Source: Nilaparvata lugens
Taxonomy: Eukaryota; Arthropoda; Insecta; Hemiptera; Delphacidae
DNA: 64,000 nt
Reading direction: 5' to 3'
NCBI RefSeq assembly: GCF_014356525.2
Contig: NC_052505.1
Coordinates: forward strand, 46,959,969-47,023,968
Of the stretch, positions 26,001 to 64,000 are shown piece by piece (the stretch's first letter is position 1; each line of letters starts with the position of its first letter). Position numbers and translations under genes: made by a program. Under the pieces are notes generated by a model that had not been told where the DNA came from, ran no database searches, and worked only from the letters and a program-made list of their open reading frames with translations.

Positions 26001-26012
26001 TATGCTTGGTGA
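23001..26012 (+). CDS. LINE ORF2: AP-type endonuclease plus reverse transcriptase
   Basis: An intact 1003-codon ORF beginning at ATG 23001. The N-terminal ~250 residues form an exonuclease/endonuclease/phosphatase domain with HQN (N49), TEAW (E78), YRSPS, GDFN (D181, N183) and a TDH end motif (D247, H248). The RT follows with KGRSAPGCDGIP, NYRPISLL, FLDLAKAFDTV (D622), VVQGSTLGPLLF and FADD (D711, D712), then thumb and C-terminal region. All catalytic residues I can check are present. It nicks target DNA and copies element RNA at the nick (target-primed reverse transcription). The arrangement is that of the CR1/L2/Jockey superfamily. The C-terminal portion resembles the degenerate minus-strand copy at 15747-17490. 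The frame is unbroken, so this is a candidate active copy if its 5' half is intact. Confidence 0.93.
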   Translation: MIRESFDELDVSLIRCTECADIFDFHGKFSNRDSMGNGSGMGFSVIHQNIRSYRRNFDEFSTVLQGLGHKFNCIILTEAWLNDDSHPINISGYHSFRSFNNLNQSDGLVVYIDEGLPVTCNELVLGGLATCLSLTFTWAGAACEILAVYRSPSTNLTTFINALNVYCNEQSPGVVRILAGDFNCDTLNVAPGSVEEHYIDILSDAGFVPCIDKVTRPASGTCIDHFFVKLPRFFNASSVILQSSVTDHYAICLNILSTKTHKPPNTDRVIIKTDWKKVRNTLSSHNWNRVIEQNNVDNATDIFIESVQNIIAEKSHEVKVSSRNTQLKPWITAGLVNSIRHRDKLRKKLNRQPFNYLLRNEFTQYRNMLHSAIKRAKYNYYKNKVEEATGNPRKFWSVINEISGRIDNSKSFPVSAFSRPGEVIDSQKTKEIANQFNQYFAKVGTNLANSIITQDAPVVRDDEHAADSEFQLQPVSRQELEEVVKSLKGRSAPGCDGIPTRVIKNNIDILIHPILHIVNLSILVGHFPCALKTARVIPIYKSGPKGIFSNYRPISLLATLSKIIEKCIKIQLTKYLNEYNLISNSQYGFQKSKNTSDTLFNMSRAISSSIKSRRKVLITFLDLAKAFDTVDRRILIKKLESLGIKNISLRWFKSYFHNRQQSVCINGENSDKENVEYGVVQGSTLGPLLFLIYINNLSKLVVEGELYLFADDTALVSTGSTWEEAYMSASIDLSKIKNWFDHNSLTVNVEKTKFMPIVTRNQADPGSLILTMHSCNNPRSAGCNCSMIERVDHYKYLGVVLDSKMSWVQHVQCAKNRLRKLLHAFSELSNVLSVDQCKVVYFAYVQSIILYGILAWGGASSSVIEPLAVTQRSIIKTILKRDFRYPTRQLFIEFPVLNVRQLFIKSLLIHIKKYKTELLGETVNHSYSTRHRSNYSFEIPQLTHGSELTNPSYLAHVLYRNVPGVIREAEAFSLVVFRKRVDRWLYQIGWEASEELLQSRYAW

Positions 26013-29168: not shown

Positions 29169-30736
29169 GTGAGTAATCCACCTTGATTCTATCAGCACTG
29201 TTCTACAGCATCAATCATCGATAATAAATTATGAGGTTTGACTTAGACCTATTTGCAAAACTATAGAGAGGAATTATCAAGATTCATCTTTCTCTATTAA
29301 TGTAGACTAATCGATTCTCATTCCACATCTTCACTACCCAATTTAACGAAAATATATAGTCTATTGCTATCATAGTATAATTATTATTAGCTCTATATTA
29401 GCATACTATCATGATTGCGAGTTCAGTGTTCCAGAATGGATTGAATAAAACGACTTGTAATTGCTAGTTTGCTCCTTTTTTATTGGGATTTCACTAGAAA
29501 TTGATATTATTTGTGTAAAAATATGAATCAGTTTATCATCACGTTCCAGATTCTAGTAAAGGAGAGGTTGTTACAATTTCAGGTCGTTCTTTGTTCAATA
29601 TGGTTATCCACCACACATTACATCGCTATTCGCTATGACATCCACACAGAGCTTGTCATTATAAATTTGATGTTGATTGAAGCTCATTGAGGAACAGAAA
29701 AGTTGGCATCCCAACCAACTAAAAACATAAGCTTTAAATTCATAGTTTCGAATTACTGAGTCCATGTTTTGTGATAGGCGGTAATGCTTCATTATAATTT
29801 CGGTAATTATTTCGAGGTCGCCTGCTGTTGAAGTAATTGAGTGAACTTGGTGACTGTGAACTTGAAAGGAAAATTTATGTCAAAATAATATTTTTGCGCC
29901 CTTAGAAGGAGAAGCGCGCGTTGACGTTTCTGAATTGAAAACAATGCGGCGCAGAAGAAAGCCGGGGCGTCCAAATAAATGCCAGAGCAATTAAACTGGC
30001 ACACTGGGACTGGGACTGCCAGTCGACCCTCGCAAAATTATGAGACCTCCTTGGAAATGTCTTCCATTATAGAGCAAAACGCGCCACGAATACGCTACGT
30101 GATCATTTTTAATGAGCTAGCTGTTAAAGATGGCAGTATTCAATTTGGATGAAAAAAATTCAATAGGAATAATAATTTATCTTTTCAATAATTCATATTG
30201 AAGAACAAAGTTCATGGTCATCCAAATATACTGTAATTATTGTGAAATGGAAGCATCATGAAATATGTTTCTATACGGCATTATTTGAGAAATCACAGTA
30301 AATTAAATCGCAGATACAAATTAACGAACTATTTTTTTTATCTCCGGCTTTTTGGTTTGGTCTACCACTTTGGCATTCCTGTGTCTGACTATCGACATTA
30401 TTTTGCTTAGTTGCATCAAGAATATCAGGCTAATCATCAACTACAAGTGCAGTTGTATTGTGCTCATGGAACTATGTGGGTCCTCAGTAGCTAATTATGT
30501 GACGTTTCCTCCGTCAGTGGTGGTCAGAAACTTGATTTTCCCTATGTTTTGCATGTTATCTATCACGTTCAGCAGGAAGTCTCTCTCAGGCTTTTTCACA
30601 CATATACGACACATTCAGCTCAGATGATTTTCTGTTCGTTTTCGGTAGATTCCGAAAAGTGTTAAACAGTAATTCGTTTTGAATTCGGTACCGAATGTAA
30701 ACCAAACAACAACAAACACCCCCTCGACACGAATAA
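29169..30736. other. Probable intron, no feature recognised
   Basis: AT-rich non-coding sequence after the candidate exon, with a GC-richer patch at about 29890-30010. No second exon could be supported. Confidence 0.4.
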
Positions 30737-32725
30737 GTTTTCGTCAGGTTTGATTCCGTTGCCAGGGAACAGCAAACTAATCTTCAACACACACTTGGTT
30801 CAGTTTCTGTTCCAACCAAACTGATTTTTTGGGAAGTGATATCTTGAAAAAAATCTGTCATCTGAAATGTAGAAATCCCAATTTATATGGTGAATTCATT
30901 TCAGCTGTTTCTTTATACTTTACAGAATTTGTAAAATCTAAACACCGCATGTATTTTGAAGGAAATTAATAAAAAATCAAATTATAACCGAACGAGAACC
31001 TAGAATGTATGAAAGTCTCATCCGTTTTCGACAAGAACAGAAACGAAAGCTGATCAGAGCCGTCGAAATGTGAAATAAGTCTCATCAAGTGTATGTTTTT
31101 GAACAATCAACATTATTTAATGAAATATTAATATTATGTGTAGCTTTCATCTTTAGGCCTATATCGGGAATGATTCACACATGAATTGAAAGATCATCTT
31201 CAATCACTATATACTCAATTTCAGTCTACAAATGTCATATATTTGAATAATTCGAACAACCTTCCAGTTCTGGAAAGGGTATAAGGGGTTAGCCAGGTTG
31301 CATCATCAATCAAATCACTCATCATACACATTTCATAAAGGGATTCCAACCATTAACCCGTTTATCAACCAATCACAAGACATAATGGAGTGGGGAGTGT
31401 GTCAGCGTAGGCGTGACCTTGTTGTGATTAGGATTTCTCTCTTCCAAACCAACCCTGAAAGTTCAAATGAATGAACCGAATTAGATAAAATAAATGAGAA
31501 TCGGTTGAAATAACGTAATTAGTCCTTGTTGTGAGGAATTAGGAAGATCAATGAATTATTCTCTAGTACAGTACTTCGTATATAGTAGATGCTATAAAGC
31601 CATGAAAAATCTCATAATCATAATAAAGTGGATGCAAAGTGGGCCCAGTTGTAATAATTGATATTTTGTAATAAGCATGTAAAGTTATGTACAAAATATG
31701 TATCAGCATGATCAGCGAGTGAGTATCGGTAATTTTTCGAATTTTTAAGGCAACTGGGAATTCCACAGCTCTATTGGCCAACGCGTTAGTCTGGGTTTTT
31801 CGGAATGCCTGGCATCGATATGGAGTGTTTAGGCCTGCATGCCACAACGAACATATCCATCCGGTTTGGCTCACAACGCTACACATCGCGTGTTTACTTT
31901 GAACGAATGAGAACGCGGCGAAAACACACGCGGGTGTGTTTTTGTATGTATTTATATTGTGAAGTGAATTCTACGTGAGCGTGAGGTGAGAGTCAGTTTT
32001 GGGTATTTGAAATTTCCAGCTAACTCTCAGATACTGCCTACTCAGTTTTACGCTCTCTGTTGGATCACATGCACTCACACACATTTTCCATACTATATAG
32101 GCTAACTGTTTTCCGTGGAAGAGATTCGTTGGGAAGAAAGGGAGTGAGTGATGGATCATATTTCTCAGTCATGAGGTAGTTTACTTTCACTAAACCTAAT
32201 CTCATTCCGGTCGTGTGTTGATGGGAAGGATATTGTTTCATGTCCTTCTCAGAGAGTCAACAATTAATCTTATTTGTAGAAACACCACCGATTTATATAG
32301 TTACATTATTTCATTCATATTCTAATATTATCAATATTCGAATTGAATTCCAATCTTCATTATGATCAATAATAATTCTTCATAATAATGTGTAAAATTC
32401 GATGAATAATTTAGCTATACTGTGATTTGATGTAAGTAGGTCTATGAGCCAGAATATATTGCGACATATCCCGATCTAATCTAATTTCACGAATTATTTC
32501 TCTTATCATGTTAAATTTTGGCTGAACTGATAATCAAGTATGAACAGAACTGACTAAGTATTACCATATTCTTTCTCGTTCTCTTCCATTGTTATAGAAA
32601 CATATCAGCACCCCTTATCAACGTATCTCAACGTTTTCAACTTCTTTTCATCCTTCAAATTTATATTCTCACACTTCGTCAATCTTCGATTTTTTTGTCA
32701 GCCACCATATTAAATGTCACTTTGT
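30737..32725 (+). repeat. 1.99-kb direct duplication, copy 1
   Basis: Starts GTTTTCGTCAGGTTTGATTC and ends in ATGTCACTTTGT. It matches 35432-37424 almost base for base; by eye I count about six substitutions and one 4-bp indel. It lacks LTR-like TG..CA ends and inverted ends. It contains open frames on the minus strand (31886-31563, 32159-31971), conserved in both copies only because the DNA is duplicated; no protein family is recognised. Confidence 0.93.
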
Positions 32726-33330
32726 CCCACACAGCACACTGATGTTTATAAAACGTTTAATAAACGTTATCTCTTAAACATTTGAAACGTTTAGACAACG
32801 TTGTATGTTGTTGGCCATAACGTTTTATAAACGTTTATTCAACCTTTAGTTTGGTACTGACCTTTACGTTTAATAAACATTTATTTAAACGTTGTATTCA
32901 ACATTTCGATAAACGTTATATCAACGCTTTGATAAACATTATAGTTAACTTTCAATAAACGTTATATCAACGTTTTGATAAACATTATATCAACGTTTTG
33001 AAAAACATTATATCAACGTTTTGATAAACATTATATCAACGTTTTGATAAACATTACAGTCAACATTTCAATAAACGTTTTGATGAACATTATAATCAAC
33101 CATTAGTTAAGCATTCGATTCTTTCCCAGGTAGCACAGAAACGTTGAAATAAAGTTAGAAACACGTAATACCTTAACGTTGAAAACACGAAAAAATGTCC
33201 GTCGTTTCCACATTATTTTCAACGTTGAATAATAGTTGAAAAAACATCGTGGTAACCATTATTTTCAACTATCAACAGACATTGAATTAGCCATACTTTT
33301 TAACCGGTACCTTATTAATTACATGATAAT
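32726..33330. repeat. AACGTT-rich region with 23-bp minisatellite
   Basis: From 32750 the sequence is built of AAACGTT / ATAAACATTATATCAACG variants. Between about 32899 and 33101 they form a regular array of ~8-9 units with a 23-bp period (CAACGTTTTGATAAACATTA plus TAT). A related but irregular AACGTTGAAA block follows to 33300. It could be the body of a non-autonomous transposon, but I see no firm ends. Confidence 0.75.
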
Positions 33331-34651: not shown

Positions 34652-35431
34652 AAAAATTGGTTTTGTTTTAGTAGAAGCACTAGCTGTATAGAACATGAAC
34701 CAAATGTAACAGAGATAATTATTTAGTATAGAATGAAGAGACTATAATCACAATTTGGCCATTTGTTTGAGAAGGCTAAATTATGGTAAAAGTTTGGTGG
34801 ATTTGAAAAAGCTAGCCAGCAATCAAAATGCTGAGAGAACAAATGGCCACAGTGTTATTATACAGTCTCTCTGTAGTGTGAAATAAAGAAGTGAATATTA
34901 AATGCATGAAAAGTCTGTATATTGTAAAATTATTACAAAAAAGATTATGGATGTTTGAGATTCTCTAAAAATTTACTTATTGGCACTTGGCCTAGTTACA
35001 TGTGATTGGGTGCTGGATCATTTCTCCGTTTTTCTCGACCTCCATCATGGTCTTTGGAGAGTCAAAACCAATTTTGGATTATTATATGGATTTCTTCATT
35101 TGGGGCACTGGAAGTAGACTTGATGTTCCACACTGCACCTGAAAACAAAAATTTATAACCCACTGTGAAAAACAATATTTAAATTGAAAACTGCCATGTA
35201 ATTTATATATATTTTTCCAGAAGAAAAATTTAGTGGGATTGAAGTTAGTAGAGATGTGATTTAGATGAGTTTGAGATGGGATATTATATATGAATATATA
35301 TACAGTTTGAGTCATATGTATTGGGAACCATTCAATAACTTGGAGACTATTGTGGATATTACTGTAACTTTCAGGATACTCTATACTCATTTAGTATCAT
35401 TTAGTAGTACTCATTTAGTAGTTATAAATAG
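34652..35431. other. Non-coding DNA
   Basis: No supported feature. Short TCATTTAGTA repeats lie at 35386-35420 immediately before the second copy of the large duplication. Confidence 0.4.
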
Positions 35432-37424
35432 GTTTTCGTCAGGTTTGATTCCGTTGCCAGGGAACAGCAAACTAATCTTCAACACACACTTGGTTCAGTT
35501 TCTGTTCCAACCAAACTGATTTTTTGGGAAGTGATATCTTGAAAAAAATCTGTCATCTGAAATGTAGAAATCCCAATTTATATGGTGAATTCATTTCAGC
35601 TGTTTCTTTATACTTTACAGAATTTGTAAAATCTAAACACCGCATGTATTTTGAAGGAAATTAATAAAAAATCAAATTATAACCGAACGAGAACCTAGAA
35701 TGTATGAAAGTCTCATCCGTTTTCGACAAGAACAGAAACGAAAGCCGATCAGAGCCGTCGAAATGTGAAATAAGTCTCATCAAGTGTATGTTTTTGAACA
35801 ATCAACATTATTTAATGAAATATTAATATTATGTGTAGCTTTCATCTTTAGGCCTATATCGGGAATGATTCACACATGAATTGAAAGATCATCTTCAATC
35901 ACTATATACTCAATTTCAGTCTACAAATGTCATATATTTGAATAATTCGAACAACCTTCCAGTTCTGGAAAGGGTATAAGGGGTTAGCCAGGTTGCATCA
36001 TCAATCAAATCACTCATCATACACATTTCATAAAGGGATTCCAACCATTAACCCGTTTATCAACCAATCACAAGACATAATGGAGTGGGGAGTGTGTCAG
36101 CGTAGGCGTGACCTTGTTGTGATTAGGATTTCTCTCTTCCAAACCAACCCTGAAAGTTCAAATGAATGAACCGAATTAGATAAAATAAATGAGAATCGGT
36201 TGAAATAACGTAATTAGTCCTTGTTGTGAGGAATTAGGAAGATCAATGAATTATTCTCTAGTACAGTACTTCGTATATAGTAGATGCTATAAAGCCATGA
36301 AAAATCTCATAATCATAATAAAGTGGATGCAAAGTGGGCCCAGTTGTAATAATTGATATTTTGTAATAAGCATATAAAGTTATGTACAAAATATGTATCA
36401 GCATGATCAGCGAGTGAGTATCGGTAATTTTTCGAATTTTTAAGGCAACTGGGAATTCCACAGCTCTATTGGCCAACGCGTTAGTCTGGGTTTTTCGGAA
36501 TGCCTGGCATCGATATGGAGTGTTTAGGCCTGCATGCCACAACGAACATATCCATCCGGTTTGGCTCACAACGCAACACATCGCGTGTTTACTTTGAACG
36601 AATGAGAACGCGGCGAAAACACACGCGGGTGTGTTTTTGTATGTATTTATATTGTGAAGTGAATTCTACGTGAGCGTGAGGTGAGAGTCAGTTTTGGGTA
36701 TTTGAAATTTCCAGCTAACTCTCAGATACTGCCTACTCAGTTTTACGCTCTCTGTTGGATCACATGCACTCACACACATTTTCCATACTATATAGGCTAA
36801 CTGTTTTCCGTGGAAGAGATTCGTTGGGAAGAAAGGGAGTGAGTGATGGATCATATTTCTCAGTCATGAGGTAGTTTACTTTCACTAAACCTAATCTCAT
36901 TCCGGTCGTGTGTTGATGGGAAGGATATTGTTTCATGTCCTTCTCAGAGAGTCAACAATTAATCTTATTTGTAGAAACACCACCGATTTATATAGTTACA
37001 TTATTTCATTCATATTCTAATATTATCAATATTCAAATTGAATTCCAATCTTCATTATGATCAATAATAATTCTTCATAATAATGTGTAAAATTCGATGA
37101 ATAATTTAGCTATACTGTGATTTGATGTAAGTAGGTCTATGAGCCAGAATATATTGCGACATATCCTGATCTAATCTAATTTCACGAATTATTTCTCTTA
37201 TCATGTTAAATTTTGGCTGAACTGATAATCAAGTATGAACAGAACTGACTAAGTATTACCATATTCTTTCTCGTTCTCTTCCATTGTTATAGAAACATAA
37301 TTATCAGCACCCCTTATCAACGTATCTCAACGTTTTCAACTTCTTTTCATCCTTCAAATTTATATTCTCACACTTCGTCAATCTTCGATTTCTTTGTCAG
37401 CCACCATATTAAATGTCACTTTGT
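35432..37424 (+). repeat. 1.99-kb direct duplication, copy 2
   Basis: Near-identical partner of 30737-32725, in direct orientation 4.7 kb downstream. A 4-bp AATT insertion at about 37300 accounts for the length difference. The sequence beyond the copy (37425 on) differs completely from that following copy 1. Confidence 0.93.
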
Positions 37425-52074: not shown

Positions 52075-52784
52075 TTGATGAAATTATTTTTGATCTATAT
52101 GTATCCACAAAACCATTTCAACTGATTAGGGATTAATCCCATTGATAATGTTGAGAACCACATATCATTCTATTATTTTGGATTATTCATACTCTCAATG
52201 TCATCAATTCAGATATATCAAGTCTCAAGTGAGAGCCTTTTCTTTGATTTCTTCGTAGTGGATCAATCAAAACGAATTTTTTTTCCAAACAAAAAATATC
52301 AAAGACTAGTGAAGTCCTTGTGTGATCTGGAAAAAGAATGGATCTCCCATAGCAAATATTATTTCTGTAGAATGTGGTACAATCAATAATTTATGTGAAA
52401 GTGATTTCAAATGTTGAAAATTTTCCTCAAGTCCCAGTTCAATTCATGCTTCACATAGTTTTGCTTAACCGGAAATTCTCCCAGAAAAATACGTGAATTC
52501 CTGAAACAATAATTATGATTAGTAAAGGTTTGAAAGAGAACGTTGACAACAAATAAGGCGAAACCTCTTACTTTGATAACAGAGTAGACAAGTTGATAAG
52601 GAGTAATCGTAAGCATGAGACAATAACAATTATCTTCTTCAAACGACTGAAGGTTAATATTACTATGGGATGTGGAAAACATTATTTGGTGAAGATTCAC
52701 CATACAGTACGTGATATGAGCATCAATCCAAGAATGATAAGTTTTCTTAAAATCAAATGTGGGTCTTAAACTGAGCTGTAAAAT
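52075..52784. other. Non-coding flank of the LTR element
   Basis: No supported feature. Confidence 0.4.
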
Positions 52785-53282
52785 AAGTTGTCACGATGTA
52801 TATCGTAACTAGAGAAAGGCATTGAATTTAGGGCTCATTTATTCGACGCTCGGCTATCTTTCATAGAATCTGAGGGGTCAACGTTCAAGCCAGCCACTGG
52901 CCTACCGCTCAGCGTTGCTGCGCATCCTCTCTCCCCTCCCTCTCGGTCACTGAGGGAGGCTCGAAAAAGGCCAGCAAGAGGCAGTCGGGTTCGGAGAGCC
53001 AAGTCGAGCGGTCGAGAGAGGTGAGAAGGAAGCAGCGAGCAGCTAGCAACGTCACAGTACACCCGTACTACGTGAACTCCGATTTCTTCAGCTACCGGGA
53101 GTTGTGTCGAGGCTAAAGTTGATTAGCCTCTCACACAGTGAACTCCACTGCTCTACACTCGTTTGGGGCGAGTGTTAAACGACACTTAACCTGTTTGGAC
53201 GACGGGTTGCCAGTTTCGACCAACGACAACACGTCAGGTTTGGTCGAAACCTGACTCCCCATTGGTAGGCCACCAGTGGGGC

Positions 53283-53650
53283 ATCGAGGCGAGATAGGAC
53301 ATCCAGAAAGGTCAGGAAAGACCTTTCCCGCAACTCCGCGGACGATCCGGACCCCAGGAGGACAGCTAGTGCCCGGCCAGTAGGACTTAGGAAAGTCCAG
53401 AGTGCTGGCCGCCGCAGCGCACCGGTCCAGTGCGGGATCGCAAGAGGACGTCTGGGAAGGCCAGGAAAAGCCTTTCCCGCAACTCCGCGGACGATCCGGA
53501 CCCCAGGAGGACAGCTGGTGCCCGGCAAGTAGGACTTAGGAAAGTCCAGAGCGCGAGCCGCCGCAGCGCACTAATCCAGTGCGGGATCGCAAGAGGACGT
53601 CTGGGAAGGCCAGGGAAGGCCTTTACCAGAGCTCCGCAACCAACCCGGAC
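53283..53650 (+). repeat. 149-bp tandem repeat in 5' LTR, 3 units
   Basis: The marker GCGGGATCG occurs at 53432 and 53581, with a diverged first unit before it. Each unit contains CGCAC, seven bases, then GTGCG, a short hairpin. The length is not a multiple of three, so the open frames across it are not coding. Confidence 0.9.
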
Positions 53651-53764
53651 CCCGGGAAGACACCCGGTGCCCGAGGACTAAGACTTAGTCCCGACACGAA
53701 GCCCTTTCTCACGACTAACACCGCAAGGTTCCTGTTCCCTTCTTTCCGCGACCAACCCTGTTTG

Positions 53765-53782
53765 GCAGTGCGAAAGCACGGC
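53765..53782 (+). other. Single GNRA-hairpin 18-mer in the 5' LTR
   Basis: GCAGTGCGAAAGCACGGC, identical to the commonest unit of the array at 59454-61612. Stem GTGC/GCAC with GAAA loop, then an A/G mismatch and GC/GC outer pairs. The 3' LTR carries the same 18-mer at 63597-63614. Confidence 0.9.
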
Positions 53783-53991
53783 CCCTCTTTCCTAAAAGAG
53801 GGAAACATTTCTCCAAAGCACTCAAAACCCTGTTTCAACCCCCAACCCGAACGAGGGTGGTTGACGGACGCCCCACCAAGACTCCCGTCCCCTGCCGCGG
53901 CCCTCCCCAGTCGCCGACTGAGTTTAGCCGGCCCAGAGCGACACTGGGAACTCTGATAGAGAAAGGTGTGGGCAAAAATCTACTCAGAAGA

Positions 53992-54012
53992 TTGGCACAC
54001 GAACGTGGGGCC
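53992..54012 (+). promoter_or_regulatory. Probable primer-binding site
   Basis: TGGCACACGAACGTGGGGC starts three or four bases after the 5' LTR. The second half (AACGTGGGGC) matches the sequence complementary to the 3' part of tRNA-Lys; the first half departs from it. This is the expected position for the tRNA primer of minus-strand synthesis. Confidence 0.55.
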
Positions 54013-54036
54013 CAAGGCAGGAGGAGTAAAGCAGCA

Positions 54037-56652
54037 ATGAGTGCAGAAGAGAAATGTAATCGCGCCGGAGAAGACCAGGAGGCGCGAGAGGATAACAGCG
54101 ATCCAGGAGTGTCCTGGATTTACAAACTCCACCGGAATGAAGCAGTGGATCTAGCAGCATCAGCAGGGCTACCTACAACAGGTACCATGGCAGAGCTCAG
54201 GAGAGCTCTTGTCGAAAACCACCGGAGGACAATGGTGGAGGCCGCCGGTCTAAACAGGATCGGTGGCGGAGCTGGCACAGGTCAGGAAGAGGAAGGAGCT
54301 GCAGCTTTGTGGCCACCAGTCGCGGAGGCCACTGCATGTTCCAGACTGGAAGAAATACCCAAGGAGACGTCTCCAGAGTTTGATGGAGACTCCAGCAACT
54401 CCTGGGTGTACAGAGTGCACGATCAAGGCTTGATTGATCTACTACTCGACTCAGTGCTGACAGATAGCACAAGTACGAGCCTGAGGAGGGCTCTACTGGA
54501 GCAACGACAGCGGATTGTTGCGATGCTCCCCGTTCTGGATAATGGGGAGGAGGCGCTTCGTCGAAGAGCGCGAAGGCCAGCACCAGTTAGCGAGGAGGCA
54601 GAGCCTGCACTGGTGAGGCCGGAGATGCCGGAGAGGCATAATAACATGCCTAGGCATGTGTTGAGGTCACCTACCAGGTCAGCGGTGCCTGCTACATCCT
54701 GTATGGACCCGGGTGCCGTGTGTGACAAGGTTCGAGGGTGGCGGCTCTCATATGATGGGAGTGGAGATGCTCCAAGTTTTATGGAGCGGCTCGAGGAGCT
54801 GCAACAAGCATATGGCTTGTCTGGCAGACAGTTATTTCCAGCGCTACCTGAAATGTTAGCGGGGAAATGTTCCTTATGGATGAGGAATAGGAGAGAACAG
54901 TGGAGACACTGGGACGATTTCCTGAGAGACTTTCGGTCTCGTTACTATCCACCTACTTATGTGGAGGATCTTGAGAATGAAATTCTCGACAGGCGGCAGA
55001 AAGAAGGCGAGCTCATAGACGACTATGTTGAGGAGCTGCTAACGCTGATGAGGAGAAGAGGTGGTTTTTCAGAGAGTAGCCAGGTACAGAGATTGTACAA
55101 AAATCTTTTACCACGCTACAAGCTCTACATCAGGGAGGCTGAAGTGTACACCACCGACGACTTGCTACACTTAGCGAGGCAATATGAACGAATTAAATTC
55201 GAGGAGAAGAGTGCTCAACAGAGACAACGAGCTGTGAAGCAGGAGGAGGTGAGGAAGCAGACCAAGCCTCGACAGGAGACGACTACTACACAGCGCCGGA
55301 GTGAACAACCTCCAGAAGGCCCCGTGTGTTGGCAGTGCAAGAAGGTGGGACACTGGAGATCAGAGTGTCCGGAGGTTTCACTCTGCTCAAAGTGCGGGAA
55401 GCCACGACCAAATTGTTCCTGTGAGAGAGAGCAGAAGAAGACTTCTGATAAAACAGCTGGGGTTAAAACAAGGCTTCAAATCCAGCTAGAGCCAGAGCTC
55501 CAGGATGACAACCGTCTTTTCACTACAGTGGAAATAGGAAGCAGACAGTATAGTGCTCTTCTCGACACAGGAGCAGAGTCCAACTATATTAGCTCTAAAG
55601 CTTTTAATAGTTTGGAAGCAGTGGAACGAGAGCCTGTGCAGCGCGGCGCTGTTATGGCTAACGGAGCGGCTGCACGACTGCGAGGTGGTGTTATAACCAA
55701 CCTGAAAATTGGCAGAATATCCCTATCAACAACACTCACAATAATGGATGGGCTTTCTCCAGATATTCTGCTTGGTATGGAGTTTCTCCGTGAGCACCGG
55801 GTGAAAATAGACCCCTATTCCCGGTCAGTGGAATGGGATCCTCATCTCGTCAAAAAGCACATTGGAGACGATATTTCCACTCCAAAAGTGGGAAAAGGAG
55901 CTGTCAACTCGAGGCTGGCTACTGTTAAAACCCAGCCTGACATAGGGAGGTCAAGGAAGCCACCTGGAATTATTCCTGTGAAGAAGCAGGAGAAGAAGAA
56001 ATTTCCTCAAGTCCAGAAACACGTAGGAGCCGTGTGGAAGACTGGAAAAGAGGAATTTCTTTCTCAGAAAATTTCTCCAGCCCGTGGAAAGTTCATTTGC
56101 TGGCACTGTAAACGAGCTGGGCACTGGAGGTTCAACTGTCCGGAAAAGCTGTACCGGAGGCGGAAGAAGGAGGATAATTTTCAGCAAGGAGCTGGAGATA
56201 ATCGTCGAGCAGTGCAGTCTAGAAGACTGCCGGTGCTGGAAACTACACTCAAAGTAGTTTCAGATATTGGAGACAAGAATTATAATGCCAACCGGTATTA
56301 TAATTGGAAAAGGAGGACAAGGAAGGTGAATTCTGGACAGCTAGTCTACAGGAAGGAGTGTCACCTGTCCTCGGGTGCTAATCAGCTTGCCGCGAAGTTA
56401 GCGCCGGAATTTTCTGGCCCATATGAGGTCGAGGAAATGTTGAGTGCCGGTAAGAGGTTTACTGTGCACGAGAAGGGCACCAAGCTCCAGCCACACCTGC
56501 CCGAAGATGAGGAAGAGGATGGTGATGGAGCAGTTGCGGAAAAGGTGGACGGAATTCGAGCGGATGGACAGCAGGAGGCCGAGCGAGTCTATAGAGGGTC
56601 GCTGCCTATCCGGAGGATGGGATACCAGAGAGGTGTCACGCGCCGCCAATAA
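54037..56652 (+). CDS. Gag-protease-integrase-tail fusion polyprotein lacking RT
   Basis: An 871-codon ORF from ATG 54037, the first ATG after the PBS; the same frame is open into the LTR but has no better start. The Gag core spans roughly residues 249-385 (MERLEELQQAY to the ARQYERIKF segment). A first CCHC knuckle is at C431-C434-H439-C444, followed by a Cys-rich CSKCGKPRPNCSC. The aspartic protease has catalytic D510-T-G-A and the second hydrophobic-Gly motif near 577-583 (ILLGMEF). A second CCHC knuckle is at C688-C691-H696-C701. The C-terminus (around 730-815) resembles the integrase C-terminal GPY/F module (GPYEV at 794-798). RT, RNase H and the integrase catalytic core are absent, and the frame is intact across the presumed deletion. 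It could assemble particles and cut itself but cannot copy RNA. Confidence 0.88.
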   Translation: MSAEEKCNRAGEDQEAREDNSDPGVSWIYKLHRNEAVDLAASAGLPTTGTMAELRRALVENHRRTMVEAAGLNRIGGGAGTGQEEEGAAALWPPVAEATACSRLEEIPKETSPEFDGDSSNSWVYRVHDQGLIDLLLDSVLTDSTSTSLRRALLEQRQRIVAMLPVLDNGEEALRRRARRPAPVSEEAEPALVRPEMPERHNNMPRHVLRSPTRSAVPATSCMDPGAVCDKVRGWRLSYDGSGDAPSFMERLEELQQAYGLSGRQLFPALPEMLAGKCSLWMRNRREQWRHWDDFLRDFRSRYYPPTYVEDLENEILDRRQKEGELIDDYVEELLTLMRRRGGFSESSQVQRLYKNLLPRYKLYIREAEVYTTDDLLHLARQYERIKFEEKSAQQRQRAVKQEEVRKQTKPRQETTTTQRRSEQPPEGPVCWQCKKVGHWRSECPEVSLCSKCGKPRPNCSCEREQKKTSDKTAGVKTRLQIQLEPELQDDNRLFTTVEIGSRQYSALLDTGAESNYISSKAFNSLEAVEREPVQRGAVMANGAAARLRGGVITNLKIGRISLSTTLTIMDGLSPDILLGMEFLREHRVKIDPYSRSVEWDPHLVKKHIGDDISTPKVGKGAVNSRLATVKTQPDIGRSRKPPGIIPVKKQEKKKFPQVQKHVGAVWKTGKEEFLSQKISPARGKFICWHCKRAGHWRFNCPEKLYRRRKKEDNFQQGAGDNRRAVQSRRLPVLETTLKVVSDIGDKNYNANRYYNWKRRTRKVNSGQLVYRKECHLSSGANQLAAKLAPEFSGPYEVEEMLSAGKRFTVHEKGTKLQPHLPEDEEEDGDGAVAEKVDGIRADGQQEAERVYRGSLPIRRMGYQRGVTRRQ

Positions 56653-57853
56653 GGAGGTAAGAGGCGAGAAGGGGTGAATATCATAGAGTTCAATCATATC
56701 ACAGCTTTAGAGCTATTTTTGATTCATAAATTATCCCATTTAAAATGAGGAAATTAAATTTTGTTGTCAAAGACAAAATTGCATAGAAATTGAAGAAAAT
56801 TAATTCAGAATTATTAGCACGAATTTATTAGCCGAATTTTGAAAATTAATAGCATTAGCACGATTCCGAAAATAATGAAAATATTAAAAGACTGACATAT
56901 TATTGTTATTGAAAGAAATTGGTCAATAGTTTATTAAAAGGAAACAGCATATTCCGTTTAATTTTTCTCATAAAATAGAGTTCTACTTAAACTAAATGGC
57001 AACTCAACCATTACAGTTTAATTAATATAATCAGTCATAAAGCACTGGCTGAATTAAATGGAAAAAAATTATTATTGACAAATTAATGCGTTTCTTTTGA
57101 TCTGAAGGCAATCCCAATAATTTCAGATTGAAATTTATTTACAATATTAAGATGTGACCAAGCAAGGATAATCAAGAAAATTTTCTACAGTCTATGACTA
57201 GTTAATAACAGCTAAAATCGATTCCAACTAGACTAAATTTTCTTGATCGGTATATTACCGATATTGTTGTAACCAGGTACAGGTTAACAAACAAAACTTG
57301 CAGTAGCTTGTTTTCTACTTGCCATAAATAGTTGATGGCGAAATGAGTGGATAGAGAATATTAGAAAATATTATAGATCAGTATGATCCGAATAATATTT
57401 TAACCATGAGGTAATGGTTATAATAATTGAAATCATTTAATGAAGCTGGTGGTAATTGCTTTAATCCGTGTAAAGTGTTACGATGCAGTTAATTAACAGA
57501 CGTTATTATACTGTGGGATAAAAGTGAATTACGTTGCAATTAATTATTCATGTGGAATGAATAAATTGCGTTTGATTGTGAGTCGAGATGTACTACAATC
57601 GGGGGTTATTAGCTTCAGATTATGATTAAATTTTCTAATATTTCACTTGAAAATAAAGTCGGAGGACTTACTATAAATTGGAATAAAATAATTATTATTT
57701 CAATTGGAATTAATTCTATGTTGGATCGAAAAGTTGTTTGTGCTGTGCTGTGCAGATAAGATAAACATTATCTCAACTGGCTAACTGCTATCGCCAAGCT
57801 TCTAGTCTGTAGAAGAGAATTACTTCTCCTTTTCAATAACAATTTATAAAATA
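56653..57853. other. AT-rich 3' non-coding region of the LTR element
   Basis: Stops occur in all frames. A good 5' splice-site match (GAG|GTAAGA) lies at 56656/56657, four bases after the stop codon. Otherwise I see no pol-like sequence. Confidence 0.6.
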
Positions 57854-59075
57854 GAATTCATGTGAATTCTAGTTTTTCCAGATATTCTACTGTTATTGAG
57901 TCAGTCTGTGTTTGATCGTGCTATTGTTAGTTTGGAATTAGATCACGTCTCGAGAGTGAATCTAATTTTTACTCAGCCTACCATCATGAGTTTATTGACG
58001 GTGCATTAATTCATTCAATTATTACTTTTTGTGCTGATTGTTGTGATTATTTTTCGGAAAATCAATATTTACTGAGTGTGAATTAATTAACAGCTGTTGT
58101 GTCATTATACACGCCTTGTGTGAATAATTACTTTGAAAAAGTAAATTAAGATTTATTTCGGGGTGAAATAAGTCTTGAAGTGAGAAAGAGAGATTGAGCA
58201 ATAAATGTTCACTGATTGTGAATTAATTAGCAGATGTTATCTGTTATAATAAACACACTGTCATTTATATCCAATGGATGGTTACTTTGCATAAGTAAAT
58301 CATGTGATTGATTTCATTATTGAAATGAACAGTGAGAAGTGGAATATTGAGTTGAAATTTATAGTTTCGATTTTATTATTGTGATATAGTGAGAAGGCTG
58401 TAATCCTCATAACAGATCGAAAATGAATTATTATTTCGACCACATTTAATTGTGATATAAAATAGAATTCATGTGAATTCTAGTTTTTCCAGATATTCTA
58501 CTGTTATTGAGTCAGTCTGTGTTTGATCGTGCTATTGTTAGTTTGGAATTAGATCACGTCTCGAGAGTGAATCTAATTTTTACTCAGCCTACCATCATGA
58601 GTTTATTGACGGTGCATTAATTCATTCAATTATTACTATTTGTGCTGATTGTTGTGATTATTTTTCGGAAAATCAATATTTACTGAGTGTGAATTAATTA
58701 ACAGCTGTTGTGTCATTATACACGCCTTGTGTGAATAATTACTTTGAAAAAGTAAATTAAGATTTATTTCGGGGTGAAATAAGTCTTGAAGTGAGAAAGA
58801 GAGATTGAGCAATAAATGTTCACTGATTGTGAATTAATTAGCAGATGTTATCTGTTATAATAAACACACTGTCATTTATATCCAATGGATGGTTACTTTG
58901 CATAAGTAAATCATGTGATTGATTTCATTATTGAAATGAACAGTGAGAAGTGGAATATTGAGTTGAAATTTATAGTTTCGATTTTATTATTGTGATATAG
59001 TGAGAAGGCTGAGATCCTCATAACAGATCGAAAATGAATTATTATTTCGACCACATTTAATTGTGATATAAAATC
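57854..59075 (+). repeat. 611-bp tandem duplication
   Basis: Unit 1 is 57854-58464 and unit 2 is 58465 to about 59075, each starting GAATTCATGTGAATTCTAG. They are nearly identical; differences I see include T/A near 58026/58637 and TAA/AGA near 58401/59011. Confidence 0.93.
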
Positions 59076-59342
59076 GAAATATGTGGTGTAACATCACAAC
59101 TAGTGGCTTCATGTCAACCATATAATTCAGTATTCCTCATCATATTATCATCTCTCATATTTTATTGTGAACAATAAGTTGCTGATACACTGAACTAACT
59201 GAGAGTATCCATCACTCTGACACTTGGTAATTTTCCTGGACTCCAATTCACCTCTATCAACTTCTGCCTCCTGTGAAGTGGTACATTGTTGTGTATCACG
59301 TTTCTTCTTGAGGATGGGGACTGCAACTTGAGTCTACTTCCT

Positions 59343-59453
59343 CGACGAGCTCCTGGAATTATTGGAGCTGTATCTCAGCTGACTATTGCTGAGACCACGA
59401 CGAGTTCCTGGTCGTGTTGGAGATTCATCCCAGCTGTCTGATGCTGGAAGTTA
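59343..59453 (+). repeat. Imperfect ~55-bp tandem pair before the hairpin array
   Basis: Two units start CGACGAGCTCCTGG and CGACGAGTTCCTGG and end GCTGAGA / GCTGGAA. They lie directly upstream of the first hairpin. Confidence 0.7.
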
Positions 59454-60315
59454 GGCAGTGTGAAAACACGGCCATGCAGGGCGAAAGCCCGGCACATGCA
59501 GTGCGCAAGCACGGCGAAGCAAGGCAGTGTGAAAACACGGCCATGCAGGGCGAAAGCCCGGCACATGCAGTGCGCAAGCACGGCGAAGCAAGGCAGTGTG
59601 AAAACACGGCCATGCAGGGCGAAAGCCCGGCACATGCAGTGCGCAAGCACGGCGAAGCAAGGCAGTGTGAAAGCACGGCCATGCAGGGCGAAAGCCGGCA
59701 CATGCAGTGCGCAAGCACGGCGAAGCAAGGCAGTGTGAAAACACGGCATGCAGGGCGAAAGCCCGGCACATGCAGTGCGCAAGCACGGCGACTCATACGG
59801 CGTCCTCGGCAGTGTGGAAACACGGCAACTCTGCAGTGCGGGAGCACGGCGTCCTTTTCGCGATGCGAAAGCATAGCGTTCCTGGCAGTGCGGAAGCACG
59901 GCGCTCCGGGCAGTGCGAAAGCACGGCGCTTCTTGCAGTGCGAAAGCACGGCATTCCTTTGGCAGTGCGAAAGCACCGCGTCCTTATTTTTGCAGTGCGA
60001 AAGCACGGCGCTTCTTGCAGTGCGAAAGCACGGCGTCCCCCATCGCAGTGCGCAAGCACGGCATGCAGGGCGAAAGCCCGGCCCGCAGGGCGAAAGCCCG
60101 GCAAAGGTAGTGCGCGAGCTTGACCAAGGCAGTGTGGGAACACGGCAGCCAGATTGCGAGCTCGTCCGAACGTCGTGCGCAAGCATGACACATCGGTCAG
60201 TGAGTGTCTGGATTGTCATTACGCGGACGCACACCTTCGCGGTGTGGGAACACCGCGGCAGTGTGAAAACACGGCACGCAGTGCGCAAGCACGGCCCGCA
60301 GGGCGAAAGCCCGGC

Positions 60316-60411
60316 GATTTGTTTCTGTGTTTGTGTGTTTCTGTGTTTTTTGTGTTTCTGTGTTTTTTGTGTTTCTGTGTTTTTTGTGTGTTTTGTGTAC
60401 CCTGTGTTGTC
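60316..60411 (+). repeat. TG/T-rich tract inside the hairpin array
   Basis: Repeats of TTTCTGTGTTTTTTGTG separate two blocks of hairpins. Confidence 0.9.
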
Positions 60412-60782
60412 CCTCCTGGCAGTGCGAGAGCACGGCGCTCTTACCTGCAGTGCGACAGCACGGCGTCCTTCTGCAGTGTGAAAACACGGCGACTCGGCAG
60501 TGCGAAAGCACGGCGTCCATTTATGTACAGTGCGAAGCACGACACTTCCCGGCAGTGTCCTGCAAGTGTGACACGGCGCTCCCCGGCAGTGCGAAAGCAC
60601 GGCGCTCTCACCTGCAGTGCGGAAGCACGGCGTCCTGGGCAGTGCGGAAGCACGGCGACTCGGCAGTGCGAAAGCACCGCGTCCTTATTTTTGCAGTGCG
60701 AGAGCACGGCGACTCTTTGCAGTGCGGAAGCACGGCGGTCCTTTGCAGTGCGAAGCACGGCGTTTCCCTTGCAATGCTACTT

Positions 60783-60817
60783 AGGTTCTCAGAACCTGTC
60801 TGAGGTGTGTTCACCTC
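60783..60817 (+). other. Two non-GNRA hairpins in the array gap
   Basis: AGGTTC-TCA-GAACCT (60783-60797) and GAGGTG-TGTT-CACCTC (60802-60817) are perfect 6-bp stems side by side, different from the GNRA units around them. Confidence 0.75.
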
Positions 60818-61612
60818 GTTTTTTTTGTGTTACCCGCCCTTCCTGGCAGTGCGAGAGCACGGCGCTCTCATCTGCAGTGCGGAAGCACGGCGTCCTCGGC
60901 AGTGTGAAAACACGGCAACTCTGCAGTGCGGGAGCACGGCGTCCTTTTCGCGATGCGAAAGCATGGTGTTCCTGGCAGTGCGGAAGCACGGCGCCCCGGG
61001 CAGTGCGAAAGCACGGCATTCCTTTTGCAGTGCGAAAGCACCGCGTCCTTATTTTTGCAGTGCGAAAGCACGGCGTTTCTTGCAGTGCGAAAGCACGGCG
61101 TCCCCCCATCGCAGTGCGGAAGCACGGCGGCCTCTTGCAGTGTGCAAACACGGCGTCCCCCATCGCAGTGCGGAAGCACGGCGGTCCTTTGCAGTGCGAA
61201 AGCACGGCGTTTCTTGCAGTGCGAAAGCACGGCGTCCCCCATCGCAGTGCGGAAGCACGGCGGCCTCTTGCAGTGTGCAAACACGGCGTCCCCCATTGCA
61301 GTGCGGAAGCACGGCGGTCCTTTGCAGTGCGAAAGCACCGCGTCCTTATTTTTGCAGTGCGAAAGCACGGCGTCCCCCATCGCAGTGCGGAAGCACGGCG
61401 GCCTCTTGCAGTGTGCAAACACGGCGTCCCCCATTGCAGTGCGGAAGCACGGCGGTCCTTGCAGTGCGAAAGCACGGCGTTTCTTGCAGTGCGAAAGCAC
61501 GGCGTCCCCCATCGCAGTGCGGAAGCACGGCGGCCTCTTGCAGTGTGCAAACACGGCGGTCTCTTGCAGTGTGCGAACACGGCGTCTCAACGCAGTGCGA
61601 AAGCACGGCGCA

Positions 61613-61877
61613 GATCTTCAAGATCTTCTCTGAAGCTAGGCCTAGGATCTGGCCGGGTAGCTTGCTCATTTCTTCGGATGGTGCCGACGCATCACCACCG
61701 GTTGGCGAGGAACCAACCTGGCGCCCAGTTTATGTTCGGTCTATGTTGACCGGCGGAGAGGCGGCAGAATGTACTCAGGCATTTGGGACCTTCTGTCTGC
61801 CGTTTACCCCTTCCATCCTCACCCCCCCCTCTCCTCCCCCTCTCTTTTCCCCCCCCCTTCCCTTAGTAGGAACAGTG
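61613..61877 (+). other. 3' non-coding segment with polypyrimidine tract
   Basis: GC-rich sequence followed by an uninterrupted 43-base pyrimidine run at 61822-61864, 13 bases before the 3' LTR. A retrotransposon is expected to have a purine-rich tract here on the sense strand. I do not see one apart from the short AGTAGGAACAG. Confidence 0.8.
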
Positions 61878-62370
61878 TGTCACGATGTATATCGTAACTA
61901 GAGAAAGGCATTGAATTTAGGGCTCATTTATTCGACGCTCGGCTATCTTTCATAGAATCTGAGGGGTCAACGTTCAAGCCAGCCACTGGCCTACCGCTCA
62001 GCGTTGCTGCGCATCCTCTCTCCCCTCCCTCTCGGTCACTGAGGGAGGCTCGAGAAAGGCCAGCAAGAGGCAGTCGAGTTCGGAGAGCCAAGTCGAGCGG
62101 TCGAGAGAGGTGAGAAGGAAGCAGCGAGCAGCTAGCAACGTCACAGTACACCCGTACTACGTGAACTCCGATTTCTTCAGCGACCGGGAGTTGTGTCGAG
62201 GCTAAAGTTGATTAGCCTCTCACACAGTGAACTCCACTGCTCTACACTCGTTTGGGCGAGTGTTAAACGACACTTAACCTGTTTGGACGACGGGTTGCCA
62301 GTTTCGACTAACGACAACACGTCAGGTTTGGTCGAAACCTGACTCCCCATTGGTAGGCCACCAGTGGGGC

Positions 62371-63480
62371 ATCGAGGCGAGATAGGACATCCAGGAAGGT
62401 CAGGAAAGACCTTTCCCGCAACTCCGCGGACGATCCGGACCCCAGGAGGACAGCTAGTGCCCGGCCAGTAGGACTTAGGAAAGTCCAGAGTGCTGGCCGC
62501 CGCAGCGCACCGGTCCAGTGCGGGATCGCAAGAGGACGTCTAGGAAGGCCAGGAAAAGCCTTTCCCGCAACTCCGCGGACGATCCGGACCCCAGGAGGAC
62601 AGCTAGTGCCCGGCCAGTAGGACTTAGGAAAGTCCAGAGTGCTGGCCGCCGCAGCGCACCGGTCCAGTGCGGGATCGCAAGAGGACGTCCAGGAAGGCCA
62701 GGAAAAGCCTTTCCCGCAACTCCGCGGACGATCCGGACCCCAGGAGGACAGCTAGTGCCCGCCAGTAGGACTTAGGAAAGTCCAGAGTGCTGGCCGCCGC
62801 AGCGCACCGGTCCAGTGCGGGATCGCAAGAGGACGTCCAGGAAGGCCAGGAAAAGCCTTTCCCGCAACTCCGCGGACGATCCGGACCCCAGGAGGACAGC
62901 TAGTGCCCGGCCAGTAGGACTTAGGAAAGTCCAGAGTGCTGGCCGCCGCAGCGCACCGGTCCAGTGCGGGATCGCAAGAGGACGTCTGGGAAGGTGTGGA
63001 AAAACCTTTCCCGCAACTCCGCGGCCGATCCGGACCCCAGGAGGACAGCTGGTGCCCGGCCAGTGGGACTTAGGAGAGTCCAGAGTGCTGGCCGCCGCAG
63101 CGCACTAATCCAGTGCGGGATCGCAAGAGGACATCTGGGAAGGTGTGGAAAAACCTTTCCCGCAACTCCGCGGCCGATCCGGACCCCAGGAGGACAGCTG
63201 GTGCCCGGCCAGTGGGACTTAGGAAAGTCCAGAGTGCTGGCCGCCGCAGCGCACTAATCCAGTGCGGGATCGCAAAAGGACATCTAGGAAGGTGTGGAAA
63301 AACCTTTCCCGCAACTCCGCGGCCGATCCGGACCCCAGGAGGACAGCTGGTGCCCGGCAAGTAGGACTTAGGGAAGTCCAGAGCGCGAGCCGCCGCAGCG
63401 CACTGATCCAGTGCGGAAGCGAAAGAGGACCTCTGGGAAGGCCAGGGAAGGCCTTTACCAGAGCTCCGCGTCCAACCCGG
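62371..63480 (+). repeat. 149-bp tandem repeat in 3' LTR, 8 units
   Basis: The unit marker GCGGGATCG (GCGGAAGCG in the last) occurs at 62520, 62669, 62817, 62966, 63115, 63264 and 63413, after a diverged first unit. Two subtypes exist: early units with GGCCAGGAAAAGCC and later units with GGTGTGGAAAAACC. Confidence 0.92.
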
Positions 63481-63596
63481 ACCCCGGGAAGACACCCGGT
63501 GCCCAAGGACTAAGACTTAGTCCCGACACGAAGCCTTTTCTCATGACTAACACCGCAAGGTTCCTGTTCCCTTCTTTCCGCGACCAACCCTGTTTG

Positions 63597-63614
63597 GCAG
63601 TGCGAAAGCACGGC
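63597..63614 (+). other. Single GNRA-hairpin 18-mer in the 3' LTR
   Basis: GCAGTGCGAAAGCACGGC, the same 18-mer as in the 5' LTR and in the internal array. Stem GTGC/GCAC, loop GAAA. Confidence 0.9.
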
Positions 63615-63824
63615 CCCTCTTTCCTAAAAGAGGGAAACATTTCTCCAAAGCACTCAAAACCCTGTTTCAACCCCCAACCCGAACGAGGGTGGTTGACGGA
63701 CGCCCCACCAAGACTCCCGTCCCCTGCCGCGGCCCTCCCCAGTCGCCGACTGAGTTTAGCCGGCCCAGAGCGACACTGGGAACTCTGATAGAGAAAGGTG
63801 TGGGCAATAATCTACTCAGAAAGT

Positions 63825-64000
63825 GGAAAATAACTTAAATTGATAACTGGTTAATTTAGGTTTTTCTATGTGGAAATTGGCCTAATACTTGTGCCTTTGC
63901 CTTTCAAAAGATAATAGATAAGATAATTTTGAATAAAATTTAGAATTTAGAAATAGGCCGACACATCTAGAAAATACCTGAGTCTATACCTAATTCATGC
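63825..64000. other. AT-rich flank
   Basis: Host flank after the LTR element. No feature. Confidence 0.5.

Follow-up and report, generated by a model that had tools for sequence, protein, structure and literature searches.

How animal LTR retrotransposons mark their own RNA for entry into particles is, to our knowledge, poorly known, and a locus in the genome of Nilaparvata lugens brings this question into focus. In the window, which is the whole stretch of 64,000 nucleotides that was analysed, the 3′ region of one retrotransposon carries dozens of short hairpins in tandem, nearly all of them closed by loops of the GNRA type. What do these hairpins do, and do they act as RNA, as DNA or as a coding repeat? 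A preliminary description of this DNA had read the array as constrained RNA structure and not as a plain satellite, an interpretation supported here by covariation that remains after removal of duplicates, by a tree-based null, by recurrence in relatives and by an excess of G-U pairs on the sense strand.

A Ty3/gypsy-type element and its hairpin array

The host of the array is a Ty3/gypsy-type element (Table 1) with two LTRs, a short target site duplication and a Ty3-type Gag accompanied by a zinc knuckle and an aspartic protease. In its gag open reading frame (ORF), the domains PF03732, PF00098 and PF13975 were matched above cut-off and PF19259 below its own, and the domain search found no reverse transcriptase (RT) or integrase match in this ORF. 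By eye, a second CCHC-like motif lies 3′ of the protease and is followed by an apparent integrase end, the middle of pol being absent. No Gag homologue was found at E ≤ 0.001 among 8000 candidates scored in the protein database. The primer-binding-site-like stretch is presumably of the tRNA-Lys type.

Table 1. Features of the element, in positions of the window
Feature	Positions	Strand	Basis
Ty3/gypsy-type LTR retrotransposon	52789-63820	+	LTRs, target site duplication, gag domains
Target site duplication AAGT (4 bp), left	52785-52788		LTR ends compared with other copies
5′ LTR, TGTCACG...CTCAGA, 1200 bases, ~2.5 copies of a 149-bp repeat	52789-53988	+	
Lone GTGC-GAAA-GCAC hairpin (array-type unit) in 5′ LTR	53765-53782	+	Hairpin search and covariance model
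Primer-binding-site-like stretch	53993-54011	+	Sequence only
ORF, 871 residues: Ty3-type Gag, CCHC knuckle, aspartic protease, apparent pol remnant	54037-56652	+	
AT-rich 3′ noncoding region, rich in short hairpins	56653-59453	+	
610-bp tandem duplication inside 3′ noncoding region	57845-58475 / 58456-59085	+	
69-bp higher-order repeat of three units (GTGT, GGGC, GTGC), 4.9 copies	59453-59791	+	
Tandem array of GNRA-type hairpins; 71 units in register, 74 with the covariance model	59455-61609	+ (element sense)	
Block of dissimilar hairpins, matched in position in relatives; block of the tree test	60104-60256	+	
Spacer, 265 bases, array to 3′ LTR	61613-61877	+	
3′ LTR, 1943 bases, ~7.5 copies of the 149-bp repeat	61878-63820	+	
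Lone GTGC-GAAA-GCAC hairpin (array-type unit) in 3′ LTR	63597-63614	+	Hairpin search and covariance model
Target site duplication AAGT (4 bp), right	63821-63824		LTR ends compared with other copies

The window copy looks young, and its LTRs differ at 4 of 506 aligned sites before the 149-bp repeats; a second LTR-LTR stretch, in which 13 of 486 sites differ, lies partly within the repeats and is therefore not strictly comparable. The LTRs differ in length mainly through the number of these repeats (53308-53673 versus 62384-63494), although an LTR pair should begin identical. The first 218 bases of the spacer recur with 99-100% identity at 40 listed places (40 of 355 candidates scored). A purine tract would be expected just 5′ of the 3′ LTR; instead, there is an uninterrupted 43-base pyrimidine run (61822-61864). 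Elsewhere, the window holds two 2-kb direct repeats (30732-32725 and 35427-37424), 99.4% identical and 4.7 kb apart, which are perhaps the LTRs of another element, about nine copies of a 23-bp tandem repeat (32876-33091), and an open frame of 1003 residues (23001-26012) that by eye resembles a LINE endonuclease and reverse transcriptase.

Within 59454-61612, a search for 4-bp stems closed by G..A loops counted 73 hairpins, two of which are register-shifted duplicates, leaving 71 in-register units with 70 GNRA loops and one GACA; a similarity scan blind to pairing likewise returned 71. A covariance model built from 68 distinct units, and so trained partly on the array's own units, gave 76 matches in the window at E ≤ 1; the array accounts for 74 of them and each LTR for one, with no other match in the window and none on its minus strand. 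In the remaining 61.8 kb of the plus strand, there are 37 GNRA hairpins with 4-bp stems, both LTR copies included. The count of about 70 GNRA hairpins in the 3′ region of a retrotransposon, with which the preliminary description began, is thus borne out on the sense strand of the element, and its 4-bp tetraloop stems are present; the real stem, by contrast, has six pairs around an A.G mismatch, the full unit being GC-A-GTGC[GNRA]GCAC-G-GC. The three compensated stem changes it had named (GTGT/ACAC, GGGC/GCCC and ATGC/GCAT) all occur in the window array, as does its G-U intermediate near 59666, in the unit at 59662-59679. Near 60320-60398, GT-rich sequence interrupts the array. Rfam has no match within the array, and its single match in 52500-64000, outside the array, is sub-threshold; the GAAA receptor motif CCTAAG is absent from the whole element.

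Arrays across the genome

In the genome as searched (1.085 Gb, 6870 contigs), the commonest unit has 3415 exact matches, 1688 forward and 1727 reverse, and its pattern read backwards has none. A pattern that sets the unit in LTR context and leaves the loop free matches 559 times, and among the 100 such matches listed, 92 have GNRA loops, seven AAAA and one TAAA. Arrays were present in 39 of 39 copies sampled through the spacer, with 21-145 units each, these numbers being minima for arrays that run into the end of the retrieved sequence. For the analysis of units, 41 arrays were assembled from the window, 38 of the 39 other spacer-listed places (C2610 left out) and the copies L049 and L050, which had been chosen for holding matches and are therefore not counted in the sample for array presence. 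Viral contigs contained no array when searched, and their two matches, one lone unit each, are read as chance.

A scan by similarity alone recovered 3490 units of 149 distinct kinds from the 41 arrays; a few of these, in L030, L049 and L050, are solitary and lie outside an array. GNRA loops are found in 3430 of these units, the closing pair is C-G or U-A in 3462, as in GNRA tetraloops, and the A.G mismatch is retained in 3015, while U at the second loop base occurs in only two. The spacers between units are of 220 kinds, so that spacing varies far more than the hairpin itself. Unit number is highly labile. The earlier impression that loops vary only as GNRA allows, with one GACA exception, fits the great majority of loops but has to be loosened, since GACA recurs in 26 units of 24 of the 41 arrays and a G-to-A change at the first loop position is common in older copies.

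The same copies bear on a coding origin, to which we give only a very slight chance. Long open frames span parts of the array, one frame is open across the entire array in five of the 41 copies (L012, L017, L023, L024 and L032), and sense stop triplets stand at about half the dinucleotide expectation (898 versus 1724). However, the other 36 copies, the window included, have no frame open throughout, TGA lies in every GTGTGAAA unit, unit lengths shift the frame, and antisense stop triplets are below expectation as well (1245 versus 1895), as unit composition alone would give. For these 41 copies, a coding array was rejected, with the reservations that the open frames impose.

The array is common to pol-bearing and pol-less layouts. 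Upstream of it, pol-type sequence is found, for example, in L012, L018, L037 and L050, and the AT-rich layout of the window in L013-L017 and L024-L026; the upstream sequence of L027 matches neither. Large arrays had been thought to be confined to pol-less copies, a supposition dropped because integrase matches lie upstream of large arrays in L019, L022, L035, L036, L037 and L040, with open frames of 1842 residues containing integrase near L022 and L040. That a derivative lacking RT and integrase keeps the array would be expected if the array is needed in cis, and may alternatively result from linkage by descent.

Stem pairing among distinct units and in relatives

Since repeats copy one another, pairing has to be judged among distinct units, and there it persists. 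The four core pairs are intact in 121 of the 149 distinct alleles, against a shuffle mean of 79.5 and a maximum of 93 in 5000 shuffles. With relatives included, 94.7% of cells are paired in the 92 units with three or more occurrences (87.1% shuffled, maximum 89.9%) and 88.7% in all 500 distinct units (83.1% shuffled, maximum 84.2%). A selection of 68 units gave 96.8% against 89.0% shuffled, and at most 50.7% when slid; it was obtained from the 92 by dropping 21 tail units and three others, one with a broken stem, and, as this favours pairing, all 92 and all 500 were recounted. These shuffles ignore relatedness among units. Broken stems are found in one of 30 widespread alleles (in at least five arrays) and in 24 of 87 private ones (p=0.004). 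The corresponding contrast for loop breakage, 2/30 versus 12/87, is not significant (p=0.51) and lends nothing to the loop rule that had been proposed; moreover, rare single-step changes often fall at the two CpG sites of the unit, which weakens any argument from loops.

A diverged relative, L051, is 71.5% identical over a gag stretch and contains RT, RNaseH and integrase pieces in the Ty3/gypsy order (RVT_1 score 28.6 versus a cut-off of 29.6), with a decayed array 3′ of pol. A 301-base piece of it recurs at other places in the genome at 71-91% identity, plus one 32-base match; relatives at 71-73% identity may in part be older copies of the main family. The set of relatives comprises L051 and 37 of 40 other rows (L055-L091), C5:31618918, its 32-base partner and C6510 being left out. 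At least four sense GNRA hairpins are found in 37 of these 38 loci, with none in L085, and GNRA makes up 751 of 1301 tetraloop hairpins on the sense strand and 12 of 1090 on the antisense strand. Among the 419 distinct units of the relatives, pairing is in excess at positions 5-14 (385 versus 260 shuffled) and 7-12 (388 versus 369 shuffled, maximum 381), and no better than in shuffles at 1-18, 2-17, 4-15 and 6-13. GNRA is kept in 849 of 1060 units, losses being mostly G-to-A at the first loop base, and unusual compensated units such as GCTGTGT-GTGA-ACACAGC and GCAGAGC-GCAA-GCTCTGT also occur.

Shared ancestry was taken into account in an alignment block of 225 columns and 46 distinct sequences, in which hairpins are compared at matching positions. 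A home-made scan of all column pairs, similar to R-scape, was not significant (best E 0.48) and was dominated by clade splits. When the stem pairs alone were considered, those with changes in both columns had 730 paired cells against a tree-null mean of 663, a value reached by one of 2000 simulations; this test used six of the seven hairpins in the block, with pairs taken from the unit structure after the alignment had been inspected. Three single stem pairs gave p=0.017, 0.026 and 0.040, the remaining ones not being significant. In four variants, which brought in the seventh hairpin or kept one block per locus (37 sequences), the observed value was again reached by 0 or 1 of 2000 simulations, although whole-unit exchange between arrays could inflate covariation in this test. 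The evidence for compensatory change beyond shared ancestry is thus mixed, with an excess for the unit stem pairs and no significant pair in the all-pairs scan.

Hairpin excess and strand asymmetry beyond the array

Short hairpins with perfect stems are more numerous than in dinucleotide shuffles, with 11 versus 2.2 in the 5′ LTR, 13 versus 3.9 in the gag ORF, 15 versus 6.2 in the 3′ noncoding region and 21 versus 4.5 in the L012 post-pol region, L012 being another copy of the element. A LINE ORF used as control shows no excess (5 versus 5.8), and three host stretches are mildly above shuffles (11 versus 7.6, 11 versus 9.1 and 8 versus 5.2). The gag ORF also stands out against 200 synonymous-codon shuffles, with 13 perfect hairpins versus 4.9 (maximum 11), 10 G-U stems versus 2.1 (maximum 6) and one A-C stem versus 1.9.

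A G-U pair of the sense strand corresponds to A-C on the opposite strand, so that the two counts distinguish the strands. In the 3′ LTR, gag and the 3′ noncoding region together, there are 21 G-U stems where 4.6 are expected, and four A-C stems where 5.2 are expected. Over five element stretches that include L051 and L094, an outgroup from a family with 61% integrase identity, the numbers are 30 versus 10.4 for G-U and 16 versus 10.8 for A-C, the G-U excess being absent from the old copy L051 (G-U 7, A-C 7) and from the outgroup (2 versus 5). At seven parameter settings with 60 shuffles, applied to the 5′ LTR, gag, the 3′ noncoding region and the L012 post-pol region, G-U stems lay above all 60 shuffles in 7/7 settings and A-C stems in none; one setting gave 36 and 11 observed, with 13.1 and 12.2 expected. 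Neither is in excess in six host stretches. An excess of sense G-U without one of A-C therefore favours selection on RNA over palindrome-making mutation or a DNA site.

Against this evidence, a purely mutational origin is improbable. The unit would be amplified by slippage and unequal exchange, and its pairing restored when the polymerase switches template at an imperfect palindrome, with no function involved; this accords with the very labile unit number, with the likely replacement of whole units, with an LTR pair of 2.5 and 7.5 repeats in one element, with antisense folding close to sense folding in most element segments, and with the four of six stem pairs that in relatives show no excess pairing over shuffles. 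However, palindrome correction is strand-symmetric, yet G-U exceeds A-C only in the element and only on the sense strand; the A.G mismatch should vanish, yet most units keep it; and stems are broken in private alleles, rarely in widespread ones.

Structure at the DNA level, in the form of cDNA mini-hairpins that pause reverse transcription or of an insulator-like duplex array bound by protein, is decidedly improbable. The units contain GCGAAAGC, which we take to be a very stable DNA mini-hairpin, and GNA triloops, which are stable in DNA, account for 68 of the 72 three-base loops; four-base loops nevertheless dominate, with 3367 units. GNRA in RNA needs A or G at the third loop base, and A or G stands there in nearly all units. 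Moreover, the loops differ between strands, and the G-U asymmetry favours RNA. A gypsy-type insulator was rejected, as the Su(Hw) motif, with at most one mismatch, has 18 matches in the window versus 16.6 expected and none in the array.

Computed folding finds structure in much, but not all, of the element. Local folding of gag against 40 synonymous-codon shuffles gives z of -13.5 sense and -6.2 antisense, compared with -2.2 and 0.0 for the LINE control. In windowed folds (20 shuffles), z is -6.8 for the LTR, -7.5 for gag, -5.7 for the 3′ noncoding region and -3.7 for the array, with similar antisense values, and on the sense strand of six control stretches it ranges from -0.9 to 2.2; seven further host stretches range from -2.6 to 0.8. 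The L012 post-pol region gives -3.9 sense and -5.0 antisense, its pol-coding end has no local structure (z -0.7), and L051 and L094 have weaker folding signals than the window element. Folded at whole length, a 300-base array piece gives -1.87 sense and 0.10 antisense, and a 231-base block piece -3.03; in an unconstrained fold, 30 of the 71 array units form locally at P>0.5. The Vienna energy is identical for GNRA and GAYA loops, so the energy model does not explain the loop rule; such a rule, provided it is real, would speak for recognition more than for stability.

The same RNA structure could serve another purpose: the hairpins that crowd the transcript might stabilize it, aid its nuclear export or shield it from small-RNA silencing, the array being merely the part that was amplified most. 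We consider this somewhat unlikely, though it would explain both the hairpin excess beyond the array, in the 5′ LTR, gag, the 3′ noncoding region and the L012 post-pol region, and the strong local folding of LTR, gag and 3′ region relative to the six controls. It leaves unexplained why one 18-nt GNRA unit with a retained A.G mismatch was amplified and why a unit of the array type sits in the LTR, and the pol-coding end of L012 is unstructured.

A putative packaging platform in genomic RNA

The array probably acts at the RNA level, because the signal lies on the sense strand, is spread over relatives and is recorded in the stems. Its task is less certain. The reading we tentatively prefer, at a little under an even chance, is that of a cis-acting element of genomic RNA, a putative multivalent signal for Gag binding and hence packaging; this task is singled out because the element has its own zinc-knuckle Gag, each LTR carries one unit, and pol-less copies retain the array. 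Under this proposal, unit number would shift rapidly through gain and loss of repeats while selection on the sense RNA would keep stems paired and loops mostly GNRA. The units would be repeated docking sites for the element's own zinc-knuckle Gag, and RNA bearing dozens of them would be selected into particles. The LTR unit upstream of gag would become part of the 5′ leader if transcription begins 5′ of it, and pol-less copies would keep LTRs and array, as borrowing a partner's machinery would require. On the other side, whole-unit exchange can imitate covariation, pol-less copies may simply have inherited the array, and the 3′ position of the array counts against a packaging role, known signals being described at the 5′ end.

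A bolder version, which we think unlikely, sees the hairpin polymer as a multivalent tag by which genomic RNA is identified, its loop code differing between families, with GNRA here and CAG-type loops in a related family. In 3 kb of the outgroup L094, starting 1 kb after integrase, there is no sense-strand GNRA hairpin and no covariance-model match, whereas in its presumed LTR (1-2130) the 31 hairpin loops include 11 with CAG, carried by unrelated stems, versus 1.9 shuffled (maximum 5 of 60), a lead only, from one locus, noticed post hoc, with five of the 11 being tandem copies. The number of hairpins there is not raised (31 versus 28.1). If the tag existed, autonomous elements would compete with pol-less ones for Gag via array length.

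Whatever its task, the array is a candidate RNA mark with up to 145 repeats, whose natural arrays vary in length and sequence and whose diverged relatives are natural variants. With this variation, in vitro assays could directly address valency, the loop rule and any competition of autonomous with pol-less elements. Should the excess of sense hairpins over LTR, gag and 3′ region prove general, much retrotransposon RNA would be under structural selection.

Comparison with known systems

The preliminary description knew of no element with such a tandem array, and a literature search by titles and abstract openings, in which subscription journals are thinly covered, likewise found no counterpart. 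The gypsy insulator, which consists of repeated Su(Hw) sites in duplex DNA free of hairpin constraint, is also a tandem array of a short motif within a gypsy-type element, but it differs from the window array in that its sites are duplex DNA and its motif is absent from the array. RNA viruses possess ordered RNA structure at genome scale, and the element shares with them an excess of local structure over coding and noncoding parts; here, by contrast, the hairpins are short and separate, and one unit is amplified in tandem. With Ty3/gypsy elements (Metaviridae), the window element has in common a Ty3-type gag, the CCHC knuckle, the protease and the 4-bp target site duplication, together with the RT-RNaseH-integrase order in the relative L051, whereas the 3′ hairpin array, the internal LTR repeats and the missing pol set it apart. 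There is also a general resemblance to the packaging and dimerization hairpins of retroviruses and Ty elements, which are likewise short sense hairpins near the ends of genomic RNA in elements with a CCHC Gag. Ty1, Ty3 and HIV-1 are described as having their packaging sequences in the 5′ end of the RNA (PMC11381356), whereas the putative signal proposed here consists of 21-145 tandem copies in the 3′ region.
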